NCBI RefSeq assembly: GCF_018320785.1
Contig: NC_054872.1
Span: 40,660,551 to 40,724,550, forward strand
DNA from: Cheilinus undulatus
Taxonomy: Eukaryota > Chordata > Actinopteri > Labriformes > Labridae
DNA length: 64,000 nucleotides
Direction: 5' to 3'
In this document: positions 23,565-39,204 of the stretch, one piece after another
Layout: each line of letters opens with the position of its first letter
Numbering within the stretch: position 1 is the first letter of the stretch
Notes under the pieces: model-generated
Told to the model about the DNA's origin: nothing
The model's database searches: none
What the model saw: the letters and a program-made list of their open reading frames with translations, nothing else
Translations under genes and position numbers: made by a program

Positions 23565-23833
23565 TTACAACTTGTTCCTCTTGAGATCAGCAACAAGATA
23601 TGACTCCTCCTTCTCAAGGAGTTTGTAGAAGACATCCTTTCCTGCTTGTCCTGCAGCTTTCAGGGGGCCACTGAAGAGTTCCCTCATCTTTTCCTGAGTG
23701 GTCGGGGTTGCTCTCATTTTACCATAATCTTCTGGGTGGATTACACCTTCTTTCAGTAGTTTATCCAGTATTGGGCCAGTGTTGCTCACTCTCTTGATCA
23801 GTTCACACTGGTATTTATCCACAAAGTGCTCCT
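23565..23833 (-). CDS. Gene B CARD exon
   Basis: Acceptor ttcctcag; enters in phase 1; stop TAA at 23565. Encodes [20 protein letters not shown], then [11 protein letters not shown] and [12 protein letters not shown], a CARD of the ASC/NLRP1/CARD8 class (HFVD start, helices 1-6). It is close to the pycard CARDs at 48,737 and 61,492. Confidence 0.92.
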
Positions 23834-38800: not shown

Positions 38801-39204
38801 CTCTTGGGTATTTATTTTAAAAAATGCTTAACTTAACAGAATCAAATCAAAATATTGTACTCCAGCTAACATGCTTTAACAGTTTTATGTGTTTTTTTTT
38901 TTTTTTACACGTCTGTATTCTTCCTCTTACCTCTGGCTCCCAGGCTGCTGTCTGACAATCTGAGCATCAGATCAGTCCTGTTCATCTTCTTCAAAATCTT
39001 TCTGGTCAGCTCCACACACTCTGCACTGTACGTCTTCACCATCAGCTCCACAACTACCTCTGTGTTTACTGCTTTAGGCTGGCCTGTTTTCAATAATGGG
39101 GTGCCTTTCTCCACTTCAACATGTAGATTGAAATCATGAAGCTCCTCAGAACTTAATTTTTTTAATGTATCAAACAGCACCCTCTCTGCCGTCATTGTTT
39201 CAAT
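23565..39204 (-). CDS. FIIND gene B: six-PYD FIIND-CARD protein (NLRP1/CARD8-like)
   Basis: Predicted cytosolic inflammasome protein. Exons in transcript order: 39204-38931 (PYD1, ATG at 39195), 38665-38622, 38220-37935 (PYD2), 37692-37655, 37518-37233 (PYD3), 35788-35748, 35247-34959 (PYD4), 34397-34360, 33994-33709 (PYD5), 30903-30875, 29909-29624 (PYD6), 27190-27147, 27044-26971, 26819-26602, 26510-26260, 26123-25995, 25443-25308, 25210-25181 and 23833-23565. All boundaries are GT/AG with matching phases; the CDS is 3039 nt, 1012 aa. Domains: PYDs at about 1-88, 104-198, 212-306, 321-416, 430-524 and 535-629; FIIND 630-913; CARD 924-1012. His755 and F781|S782 match the autoproteolytic residues of human NLRP1 in spacing. 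There is no NACHT and no LRR. Expected action, by family: self-cleavage, loss of the N-terminal array, release of a 231-aa UPA-CARD that seeds caspase-1 activation. The function of the PYD array is inferred only. Confidence 0.83.
23834..25180 (-). other. Gene B last intron
   Basis: About 1.35 kb. Two related blocks (24,290-24,345 and 24,470-24,530) both read gaataaagaaatgtggtcca-like text, an internal duplication or repeat fragments of unknown class. No exon seen. Confidence 0.4.
25181..25210 (-). CDS. Gene B post-UPA 30-bp exon
   Basis: Acceptor tttttcag, donor gtaaga, phase 1-1. Encodes [10 protein letters not shown] linking UPA to CARD. Confidence 0.8.
25308..25443 (-). CDS. Gene B UPA exon 2
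   Basis: 136 bp, phase 0 to 1. Encodes [20 protein letters not shown] through [11 protein letters not shown], the second half of the UPA subdomain. Confidence 0.88.
25995..26123 (-). CDS. Gene B UPA exon 1
   Basis: 129 bp, phase 0-0. Encodes [20 protein letters not shown] through VEGAEIYPE. Too short and start-less to appear as an ORF; identified from splice sites and gene A. Confidence 0.88.
26260..26510 (-). CDS. Gene B ZU5/UPA exon with autoproteolysis site
   Basis: 251 bp, phase 1 to 0. Encodes [19 protein letters not shown], then [18 protein letters not shown] and [17 protein letters not shown]. The human NLRP1 sequence around its cut site also has PSF|SPLGVL-like context, so F781|S782 is the likely scissile bond. 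Confidence 0.92.
26602..26819 (-). CDS. Gene B ZU5 exon
   Basis: 218 bp, phase 2 to 1. Encodes [40 protein letters not shown], then [20 protein letters not shown]. The AGPLMNIK and LPHW motifs match AGPLLDIK and LPHF of NLRP1 FIIND. Confidence 0.92.
26971..27044 (-). CDS. Gene B FIIND N-terminal exon 2
   Basis: 74 bp, phase 0 to 2. Encodes [20 protein letters not shown] followed by SPTYS. Confidence 0.82.
27147..27190 (-). CDS. Gene B FIIND N-terminal exon 1
   Basis: 44 bp, phase 1 to 0. Encodes [14 protein letters not shown]; joins PYD6 (SGSEG) to the FIIND. Confidence 0.78.
28255..28833. mobile_element. Tc1/mariner-type MITE
   Basis: Left CAGTGCTCAACAAATTTATT with AGACCACC and right GGTGGTCTAATACAGCACTG are inverted copies; a TA precedes the left end. 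About 580 bp, no transposase. Confidence 0.65.
29285..29560. mobile_element. RTE-type LINE 3' tail
   Basis: Orthologous in position to 14,825-15,125 of gene A (gtgttggtttgtgccaattt, acccaaagacataatgcctc). Confidence 0.45.
29624..29909 (-). CDS. Gene B PYD6 exon
   Basis: 286 bp, phase 0 to 1. Encodes [20 protein letters not shown], then [20 protein letters not shown] and [14 protein letters not shown]; a complete pyrin domain. It is the closest relative of the broken second PYD of gene A. Confidence 0.92.
29910..30874 (-). other. Gene B intron with GT/G-run
   Basis: AT-rich intron. A (GT)n tract followed by 20 consecutive G lies at 30,605-30,636 (plus strand). No exon seen. Confidence 0.5.
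30605..30636 (+). repeat. (GT)n plus G20 homopolymer
   Basis: tgtgtgtgtgtg followed by 20 G residues. Potential G-quadruplex on the non-coding strand, or C-run in the pre-mRNA. Its length may be a sequencing artefact. Confidence 0.85.
30875..30903 (-). CDS. Gene B linker exon 5
   Basis: 29 bp, acceptor ctcatag, donor gtaagt; phase 1 to 0. Encodes DPQSKYRLK between PYD5 and PYD6. Confidence 0.68.
31020..33010. repeat. Large imperfect inverted repeat around a LINE fragment
   Basis: 31,020-31,115 and 31,250-31,425 are inverted copies of 32,905-33,010, 32,820-32,900 and 32,535-32,620. Example: cacatagtataggtct at the left against agacctatactatgtg at the right. The arms are interrupted by unmatched segments. 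The centre holds LINE sequence. Confidence 0.65.
31575..32345 (+). mobile_element. CR1/Rex1-like LINE RT C-terminal remnant
   Basis: The plus-strand conceptual translation has [19 protein letters not shown] text (the FxDD box), then a DFRRN segment, [14 protein letters not shown], and LKKAQQ..LHFLR-type motifs through [10 protein letters not shown]. Several stops. It lies inside the inverted repeat, in the intron between PYD5 and PYD6, antisense to gene B. Confidence 0.75.
33070..33541. mobile_element. MITE with TA target (aagtgggggtattat family)
   Basis: Left AAGTGGGGGTATTAT and right ATAATACCCCCACTT form perfect terminal inverted repeats; TA flanks both ends (33,068-33,069 and 33,542-33,543). 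A second, decayed copy is at 10,179-10,575. Confidence 0.8.
33709..33994 (-). CDS. Gene B PYD5 exon
   Basis: 286 bp, phase 0 to 1. Encodes [40 protein letters not shown] and [13 protein letters not shown]. Full-length pyrin domain. Confidence 0.9.
34360..34397 (-). CDS. Gene B linker exon 4
   Basis: 38 bp, acceptor ctcctcag, donor gttagt, phase 1 to 0; encodes [12 protein letters not shown]. Confidence 0.65.
34430..34930 (-). mobile_element. LINE 3' fragment beside PYD4 donor
   Basis: Minus frame 34,915-34,700 has [20 protein letters not shown], a LINE reverse-transcriptase C-terminal motif, followed by a 3' tail. It begins roughly 40 bp past the PYD4 donor site and fills most of that intron. 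Confidence 0.72.
34959..35247 (-). CDS. Gene B PYD4 exon
   Basis: 289 bp, phase 0 to 1, acceptor ttttgtag. Encodes [40 protein letters not shown] and [15 protein letters not shown]. Diverged but complete; the usual RTDL is RNDL. Confidence 0.88.
35748..35788 (-). CDS. Gene B linker exon 3
   Basis: 41 bp, acceptor tctccccag, donor gtgagt, phase 1 to 0; encodes [13 protein letters not shown], acidic and Ser/Thr-rich. Confidence 0.68.
35950..36475 (+). mobile_element. Tc1 transposase C-terminal fragment
   Basis: Plus frame 36,108-36,443 encodes [18 protein letters not shown], then [18 protein letters not shown] and [20 protein letters not shown], the DDE C-terminal third of a Tc1 transposase. 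TIR-like agtcgccacc and ggtggcga flank it. It is antisense to gene B in the intron between PYD3 and linker exon 3. Confidence 0.82.
36741..36905 (+). mobile_element. tRNA-derived SINE
   Basis: Box A gatgggatagtggttagg, box B ggggtcaagtccgg, then a body ending tgtcctttctgaataaaggc, shared with the SINE at 46,376-46,515. Confidence 0.72.
37233..37518 (-). CDS. Gene B PYD3 exon
   Basis: 286 bp, phase 0 to 1. Encodes [40 protein letters not shown] and [13 protein letters not shown]. Complete pyrin domain. Confidence 0.92.
37655..37692 (-). CDS. Gene B linker exon 2
   Basis: 38 bp, acceptor ctcctcag, donor gtaagt, phase 1 to 0; encodes [12 protein letters not shown]. Confidence 0.7.
37935..38220 (-). 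CDS. Gene B PYD2 exon, divergent
   Basis: 286 bp, phase 0 to 1. Starts [20 protein letters not shown] and ends [13 protein letters not shown], so helices 1-2 and 5-6 are recognisable. The middle reads [20 protein letters not shown], far more hydrophobic than the charged helix 2-3 region of its neighbours. The frame is open. Confidence 0.85.
38622..38665 (-). CDS. Gene B linker exon 1
   Basis: 44 bp, acceptor ctccttag, donor gtaagt, phase 1 to 0; encodes [14 protein letters not shown]. Confidence 0.68.
38931..39204 (-). CDS. Gene B PYD1 exon with start codon
   Basis: Acceptor ctttccag, then ATTGAAACAATG; ATG at 39195. Encodes [40 protein letters not shown] and [13 protein letters not shown], ending in phase 1. 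The ATG upstream of the acceptor (39,225) is intronic. Confidence 0.9.

Follow-up and report, generated by a model that had tools for sequence, protein, structure and literature searches.

A wrasse gene with six PYDs ahead of FIIND and CARD, and a family of fish proteins that appears to be built from ASC-like exons

Results

A gene with six PYDs, a FIIND, and a CARD

We analyzed 64,000 nucleotides of contig NC_054872.1 from Cheilinus undulatus (the humphead wrasse, a percomorph fish); we refer to this whole stretch as the window. On its minus strand lies a gene that encodes an array of six PYDs followed by a FIIND (ZU5 and UPA) and a CARD. To the left of this main gene are two paralogs on the same strand, B and C, which both end in a PYD and have no C-terminal CARD.

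We rebuilt the model of the main gene from the sequence. It has 19 exons that run from 39204 to 23565; all 18 introns are GT-AG, the phases fit, and the frame is open to the end. This agrees with the original prediction of 19 same-strand exons with consensus splice sites and matching phases, except that the protein has 1011 amino acids plus a stop codon, not 1012 amino acids. Over its whole length, it is 100% identical to "uncharacterized protein LOC121513716 isoform X2" of Cheilinus undulatus in NCBI. That record is itself a prediction, and the main gene is known here from predicted models; as far as those go, the layout of six PYDs and FIIND-CARD in one gene is confirmed. Its features, with strand and evidence, are:

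38931-39204 (-): exon 1, PYD1 (ATG 39195-39193); PYRIN 47.7 bits, splice sites and phase, in a clade of PYD1-type domains from 12 genes
38622-38665 (-): exon 2, linker 1, a probable remnant of a CARD exon start; 31/53 bases match the gene's own CARD exon (0/5000 shuffles as good), phase 1 to 0
37935-38220 (-): exon 3, PYD2; PYRIN 29.9 bits, splice sites and phase
37655-37692 (-): exon 4, linker 2; phase 1 to 0, weak match to the CARD exon (88/5000 shuffles as good)
37233-37518 (-): exon 5, PYD3; PYRIN 43.8 bits, splice sites and phase
35748-35788 (-): exon 6, linker 3; splice sites and phase
34959-35247 (-): exon 7, PYD4, with no in-frame ATG before the domain; PYRIN 39.1 bits, splice sites and phase
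34360-34397 (-): exon 8, linker 4; splice sites and phase
33709-33994 (-): exon 9, PYD5, with no in-frame ATG before the domain; PYRIN 46.0 bits, splice sites and phase
30875-30903 (-): exon 10, linker 5; splice sites and phase
29624-29909 (-): exon 11, PYD6; PYRIN 74.2 bits, splice sites and phase
27147-27190 (-): exon 12, PYD6-FIIND linker; splice sites and phase, counterpart in paralog B
26971-27041 (-): exon 13, PYD6-FIIND linker; splice sites and phase, counterpart in paralog B
26602-26819 (-): exon 14, first part of ZU5; matched FIIND when the genome was searched, 96% identical to paralog B at the protein level
26260-26510 (-): exon 15, second part of ZU5, predicted cut site F780/S781 with H754 and E763, and start of UPA; FIIND 34.8 bits, UPA-FIIND 31.7 bits, aligned to NLRP1 chains, residues and spacing
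25995-26123 (-): exon 16, UPA; splice sites and phase, paralog B
25308-25443 (-): exon 17, end of UPA; UPA-FIIND 31.1 bits
25181-25210 (-): exon 18, UPA-CARD linker; splice sites and phase
23565-23833 (-): exon 19, ASC-type CARD and stop codon; CARD 56.5 bits, best solved match is the CARD of ASC (5e-16)

The six PYD exons are 274-289 bases each. All of them end in phase 1, those of PYD2 to PYD6 start in phase 0, and each is followed by a linker exon of 29-44 bases that leads from phase 1 back to phase 0. An ATG near the exon start is retained in PYD1, PYD2, PYD3, and PYD6. Because PYD4 and PYD5 lack an in-frame ATG upstream of the domain, the coding sequence of a complete PYD cannot begin in either exon. 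Some relatives of this protein also have an N-terminal CARD; for the main gene, tblastn did not find an upstream CARD within the window.

Taken singly, each PYD scores above the Pfam cut-off for PYRIN of 22.9 bits, and so do pieces of FIIND, UPA-FIIND, and CARD for theirs. In the whole protein, Pfam identifies six PYRIN domains, FIIND at 661-789 (127.8 bits), UPA-FIIND at 795-910 (100.2 bits), and CARD at 925-1007; that scan found no NACHT, LRR, or any other domain above its cut-off. So the domain content that had been read from the sequence (six PYDs, ZU5-UPA, and CARD, without NACHT-LRR) holds up.

Among proteins with solved structures, the ZU5-UPA part matches chains of NLRP1 and CARD8 with nearly full coverage (5.4e-27 to 2.7e-17). 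The CARD is nearest to CARDs of ASC, with the CARD of NLRP1 third, and PYD6 is closest to the PYDs of pyrin and NLRP3. H754, E763, and F780/S781 align with H1186, E1195, and F1212/S1213 of NLRP1, as these are numbered in an excerpt of PMC9700037.

Similar proteins in 42 species of fish

A protein search in which 7998 candidates were scored matched 284 proteins. Our family counts cover 120 of these, which are the matches listed, and were made with profiles for PYD, ZU5, UPA, and CARD that were built from the main protein. The 120 proteins correspond to 83 locus labels in 42 fish species (we assigned 17 of the 83 labels ourselves, to proteins that have no locus name). Every one of the 120 bears the name of a fish, and relatives outside this group of fish were not searched for separately; presumably the other species are also percomorphs. 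The matches include fish proteins with PYD arrays and FIIND, which the original prediction had proposed to look for. It had also stated that it knew of no described protein with this layout. We found none in the open-licence literature, as far as that goes, yet many proteins in the databases share the layout, and two of them (P0030 and P0111) are annotated as NLRP1 homolog or NLRP1-like.

Ahead of the last UPA, a label has between 1 and 13 PYDs. The C-terminal domain is a CARD for 50 labels, a PYD for 27, and neither for 6, so a sister class has a terminal PYD where the main protein has a CARD, and the two neighboring paralogs also belong to it. Whole-protein Pfam scans of the main protein and 10 relatives show PYD arrays plus FIIND, and NACHT or LRR was found in none of these 11 proteins. 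We also saw no NACHT accession (which we take to be PF05729) among the Pfam assignments of the 120 listed matches.

Some of these models may be over-chained, that is, may join neighboring genes. P0009 has two FIIND-CARD units and is perhaps such a case. Separately, full CARDs lie between groups of PYDs in the predicted arrays of P0002, P0011, P0045, and P0067; it is possible that these proteins are intermediates between PYD-CARD pairs and PYD-linker units, unless they are over-chained. We also considered whether alternative splicing switches the end of the protein between CARD and PYD at two loci that have both kinds of isoforms. The isoforms that we compared do not show this, as they diverge within the FIIND and carry different FIIND sequences.

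The putative catalytic H, E, and F/S are present at equal spacing (9 and 26) in 121 of the 122 FIIND units and for 82 of the 83 labels among the matches listed; the sole exception is a gene model that contains a gap. The residue after the cut serine, which we noted with DPP9-restrained sensors (those that bind DPP8/9) in mind, is Pro in 73 units, Leu in 47, and another residue in 2. According to excerpts from D'Osualdo and colleagues (PMC3210808), the SF/S motif and the conserved Glu and His matter for the cutting of CARD8 and NLRP1. Over 31 species, the median identity to the main protein is 73% for ZU5, 68% for UPA, 63% for CARD, and 40-53% for the PYDs (using the best PYD match in each species). 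Since the family retains the catalytic residues and its PYDs vary more than FIIND-CARD does, the N-terminal half is probably regulatory, as would fit a bait or sensor half ahead of an output half. That part of the original prediction, which had described the array as a new kind of N-terminal regulatory or bait region, therefore seems sound; we return to the bait below. It had further suggested that the array could hold ASC, could block release of UPA-CARD, or could sense proteases through its linkers, which are conceivable roles.

The PYD types recur in a similar order

For 113 PYDs, which came from 16 of the 83 labels, from paralog B, and from two ASC copies, we built a tree. In it, 100 of the 113 fall into seven clades with 5-22 members each and support of 0.75-0.98. 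One clade consists of terminal PYDs (support 0.85), and the remaining six broadly track the position in the array: a PYD1-type clade with 12 genes, a PYD3-type clade with a member from each of the 16 labels (support 0.98), a clade of PYD2 types, two PYD4-like clades, and one joint clade of PYD5 and PYD6. Longer arrays repeat the order 2-3-4 (for example, P0012). So PYD types recur in a similar order across species, which speaks against chained annotation: separate genes that were chained by chance would not give such an order.

Many linkers resemble the start of a CARD exon

The CARD exon of the main gene begins after a phase-1 intron, and nearby ASC-like copies read DKHFVDKHRMALIQRVSN after an acceptor of the same phase. 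We compared the linkers to a profile of 28 distinct terminal-CARD starts and took the 99th percentile of 8360 shuffles as the threshold. Among the matches listed, 254 of 418 distinct inter-PYD linkers exceed it, and 205 of the 418 exceed the shuffle maximum; the same 99th percentile is passed by 7 of 584 control segments from the middle of PYDs. The consensus of the passing inter-PYD linkers is KHSVDEHRPALIQKV. Of the 31 distinct UPA-PYD linkers in proteins that end in PYD, 18 pass, and 14 score higher than any of 6200 shuffles.

Read most simply, many inter-PYD linkers would be CARD exons that were shortened by a splice donor inside the first helix, with an ASC-type PYD-CARD exon pair as the repeat unit. 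Since so many linkers resemble truncated CARD exons, the array looks like a tandem series of such pairs. The donor lies at the Val of the CARD's Arg-Val-Ser-Asn. Val-Ser-Asn can still be read past the donor for linkers 2, 4, and 5 of the main gene and for the first linker of paralog C, with Val-Ser there largely expected from the donor consensus alone. The homology of linkers to the CARD exon start is seen at the level of the family, and within the main gene it is seen for linker 1 (see the feature list). In all, the family appears to have arisen through repetition of exons that resemble those of ASC, the inflammasome adaptor.

We also note P0120 from Xyrichtys novacula. Its first PYD shares 60% identity with the PYD of the window's ASC, and the linker after that first PYD reads almost as an intact CARD start.

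Paralogs, ASC-like copies, and genome context

The other features of the window are:

8649-17610 (-): paralog B, a model of 482 amino acids with PYD1, FIIND, and terminal PYD (8649-8912) and no CARD; 10 exons with fitting phases, terminal PYD 77.6 bits
177-287 (-): first mapped exon of paralog C (LOC121513011 isoform X2); exact mapping of P0138, with the remaining mapped exons left of the window, and Pfam
48740-54590 (-): ASC-like gene with open frames for PYD (54231-54590; PYRIN 58 bits) and CARD (48740-49015; 64.2 bits)
57760-59666 (-): second ASC-like copy with PYD (59394-59666) and CARD remnant (57760-57894); open frames, tblastn
61495-61770 (-): CARD exon of a further ASC-like copy; open frames, comparison of CARD exons

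In paralog B, PYD1 seems to be joined straight to the FIIND linkers. One of its introns is GC-AG, with the GC donor at the end of the first part of ZU5, and its PYD1 exon does not keep the acceptor of the main gene's PYD1 exon, which is altered here. Between PYD1 and FIIND, at about 15172-15390, there is a PYD6-like piece that lacks its first half and scores below the cut-off (21.5 bits). Paralog B may be functional, as a short gene, or may be in decay. Paralog C (P0138) has 973 amino acids with five PYDs, a FIIND, and a terminal PYD, and it extends over C8:40634813-40660837 (L009-L011 plus window 177-287).

Of the 21 FIIND matches in this genome, 17 are followed within 15 kb by a CARD match and 2 by neither a CARD nor a PYD match; for paralogs B and C, a PYD match takes the place of the CARD match. 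PYD matches within 25 kb upstream are present for the three genes of this cluster only. As the other 18 of 21 FIIND matches have none, the PYD array seems to be special to this cluster. CARD matches lie near three caspase loci, and none of the caspase matches has a PYD match on its own strand within 20 kb. All of these neighborhood counts (of FIIND, CARD, PYD, and caspase matches) are lower bounds.

Several other observations concern the surroundings. A cluster of ASC-like PYD and CARD exons adjoins the FIIND genes (window 48740-61770, minus strand, and L012). On another contig (G000:C19, about 32.6 Mb), L001-L003 have FIIND and CARD matches within single open frames of 591-1253 amino acids, without PYD matches upstream. 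Pieces that resemble Tc1/mariner-type transposases are scattered through the cluster (window about 11.4-11.7, 21.9-22.3, 36.0-36.4, and 62.5-63.9 kb); the one that we tested matched a Sleeping Beauty-type helix-turn-helix below its cut-off, and the others were judged by eye. Finally, a minisatellite at window 46590-46904 repeats a MLPCYDYYVTIM-like motif in one minus-strand frame.

Discussion

A proposed sensor with a PYD array in place of NACHT-LRR

We propose that the main gene encodes a FIIND-type inflammasome sensor whose N-terminal half is a PYD array that replaces NACHT-LRR, with release of UPA-CARD much as in NLRP1 or CARD8. We put the probability of this at roughly two-thirds. At the level of sequence, it is supported by the gene model, the domains, the catalytic residues, the family, the PYD types, and the family-level resemblance of linkers to CARD starts. 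An NLRP1/CARD8-like design fits because conservation falls from ZU5 to UPA to CARD to the PYDs and because the catalytic residues are kept.

We infer self-cutting, release, the partners, and the bait role, which might work as follows. The protein would cut itself at F780/S781 and the halves would remain associated, so that PYD-array-ZU5 masks UPA-CARD. If the array half were unfolded, cleaved, or sent to the proteasome, then UPA-CARD would be freed and could nucleate a filament of CARDs, which would engage ASC or a caspase with a CARD. The array would serve as bait, with its many PYDs joining PYD/ASC signaling complexes or being attacked together with them. A freed UPA-PYD from the sister class would need ASC, since three caspase loci of this genome have CARD matches nearby and no PYD match was found near any.

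As for the origin, ASC-type PYD-CARD exon pairs may have been repeated beside a FIIND-CARD gene, and their CARD exons may have been shortened to linkers via the latent splice donor at the Arg-Val-Ser-Asn codons. The PYD-ending class could have arisen if the terminal CARD was shortened in this way too and a PYD exon came after it. Putting these parts together, we can imagine a fish adaptor that was turned into a sensor: a latent donor in the first helix reduced the CARDs of repeated ASC-type pairs to linkers of about 10-15 residues, and these pairs were added in series to a self-cutting FIIND-CARD; the PYDs act as bait, so that an attack by a pathogen on PYD/ASC signaling frees UPA-CARD; and the same splice event on the last CARD, plus a PYD exon, swaps the output from CARD to PYD, which yields two parallel classes of alarm from one locus. 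We offer this combined account tentatively and think it less likely than not.

Several results weigh against our proposal. Paralog C has F/T at the predicted cut site, which counts against universal cutting. Weak constraint could by itself explain the lower conservation of the PYDs. The ratio of nonsynonymous to synonymous substitution rates between the main gene and paralog B is below 1 wherever it can be computed (0.61 for PYD1; 0.18-0.71 per exon with NG86; for FIIND, 0.36 with NG86 and 0.64 with YN00, which gave a value for only 1 of 5 exons), so there is no sign of positive selection in the exons that could be tested. The classes of PYDs are not clean either, as PYD5 and PYD6 share a clade, the PYD4-like domains are split in two, and the seventh PYD of P0071 groups with the PYD1 types. 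Within the main gene, linker 1 alone is significant: linker 2 is weak on DNA and fails the protein profile, linkers 3-5 fail both, and linker 6 fails on DNA (for linkers 3-6, 879 to 4207 of 5000 shuffles are as good). The counts of linkers and labels are not independent, because these are related and include isoforms. And the array PYDs are not closest to the PYD of ASC: where a match was found, the identity is 24-28% (28% for PYD6 versus the neighboring ASC PYD). This argues against a recent origin from that copy. With the array PYDs only distantly like it, the idea of an ASC origin rests on the CARD-derived linkers and the exon phases.

Other explanations

The most serious alternative is that the PYD array is the signaling part, a scaffold that collects or nucleates ASC by PYD-PYD contacts, with FIIND-CARD as a second contact in the same complex. 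That all six PYDs are above the cut-off, that PYD6 is closest to the PYDs of pyrin and NLRP3, and that ASC-like copies lie at the same locus would all suit a scaffold. We nevertheless consider it unlikely: the output half is better conserved, a plain scaffold would not need the FIIND catalytic residues that nearly every label retains, and the PYDs are of different types, with PYD2 weak (29.9 bits), unlike a uniform polymerizer.

Alternatively, the array might act as PYD-only proteins do, by binding ASC or PYD sensors and damping inflammasomes, with FIIND-CARD as a switch that ends the damping. The variation in PYD number among the matches listed is what a dose-type function might give. But the kept FIIND residues and the CARD point to an activating output, and we think that such a buffer is less plausible than a scaffold.

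It is very unlikely that neighboring PYD genes and a FIIND-CARD gene were merely chained together, by the prediction software and in the original prediction alike. One might suspect this from the ATGs that four of the PYD exons keep near their starts, from the two FIIND-CARD units of P0009, and from the tandem paralogs close by. However, all the phases fit, the exons of PYD4 and PYD5 have no ATG to start from, and the types of PYDs agree across species.

Lastly, despite the match of FIIND and CARD to NLRP1 and the names of P0030 and P0111, we can hardly credit an ordinary fish NLRP1 whose NACHT-LRR exons were lost or are lacking in the assembly, as neither domain turned up in the 11 whole-scanned proteins, nor a NACHT accession in the 120 listed matches, and 18 of the 21 FIIND matches in the genome have no PYD match within 25 kb upstream.

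Why does this matter? In the literature that we covered, NLRP1 and CARD8 are the main basis of work on FIIND sensors. With its many genes, two kinds of output domain, and a kept order of PYDs, the fish family would be a natural test of what is essential in degradation-triggered sensing. It also suggests a route from the exons of an adaptor to a sensor, by way of one splice donor that is hidden in a stretch of CARD codons.

Comparison with known systems

Among open-licence full texts, we found no description of a multi-PYD FIIND or FIIND-PYD protein. As for the known systems, the main protein has the FIIND-type ZU5-UPA, the catalytic residues, and the C-terminal CARD of a FIIND protein, and it lacks the NACHT and LRR of the NLR family.

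With NLRP1 of human and rat, it shares ZU5-UPA, the spacing of H, E, and F/S, Ser-Pro after the cut, and the C-terminal CARD. For human NLRP1, excerpts of PMC5142783 report that proteolysis in the N-terminal linker is sufficient for activation and that this linker is under positive selection in primates. According to published descriptions, NLRP1 carries NACHT-LRR, and the human protein has a single PYD ahead of the FIIND; the main protein has six PYDs and no NACHT-LRR.

CARD8 is a FIIND-CARD protein without NACHT-LRR, and its N-terminus is short and has no PYDs. The FIIND of the main protein matches the CARD8 chain, but the main protein has a PYD array and an ASC-type CARD. Passages of PMC7794386 state that CARD8 recruits caspase-1 and not ASC.

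NLRP1 from zebrafish and common carp shares with the main protein the FIIND-CARD in a teleost. Fish NLRP1 is reported as NACHT, LRR, FIIND, and CARD without an N-terminal PYD (in passages of PMC9978379). Passages of two reviews on inflammasomes and NLRs in fish (PMC9978379 and PMC12436146) both give fish NLRP1 these four parts and class the FIIND protein of fish as NLRP1, and passages of a survey of animal NLRs mention fish FIIND-CARD only as the end of some NLRPs (PMC11508797).

ASC (PYCARD) also has a PYD and a CARD. The CARD of the main protein is 60-61% identical to the window's ASC CARDs, its frame follows an acceptor of the same phase, and ASC-like copies adjoin the gene. However, ASC consists of one PYD and one CARD with no FIIND, so with six PYDs and a FIIND the main protein is not an ASC adaptor, and its array PYDs are far from the PYD of ASC. 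Finally, the PYD-ending sister class (LOC121513011, paralog B, and others) shares with the main protein the PYDs before FIIND. It differs in that the terminal domain is a PYD, and among the matches listed the linker that precedes this PYD significantly resembles a CARD start in 18 of 31 distinct cases.

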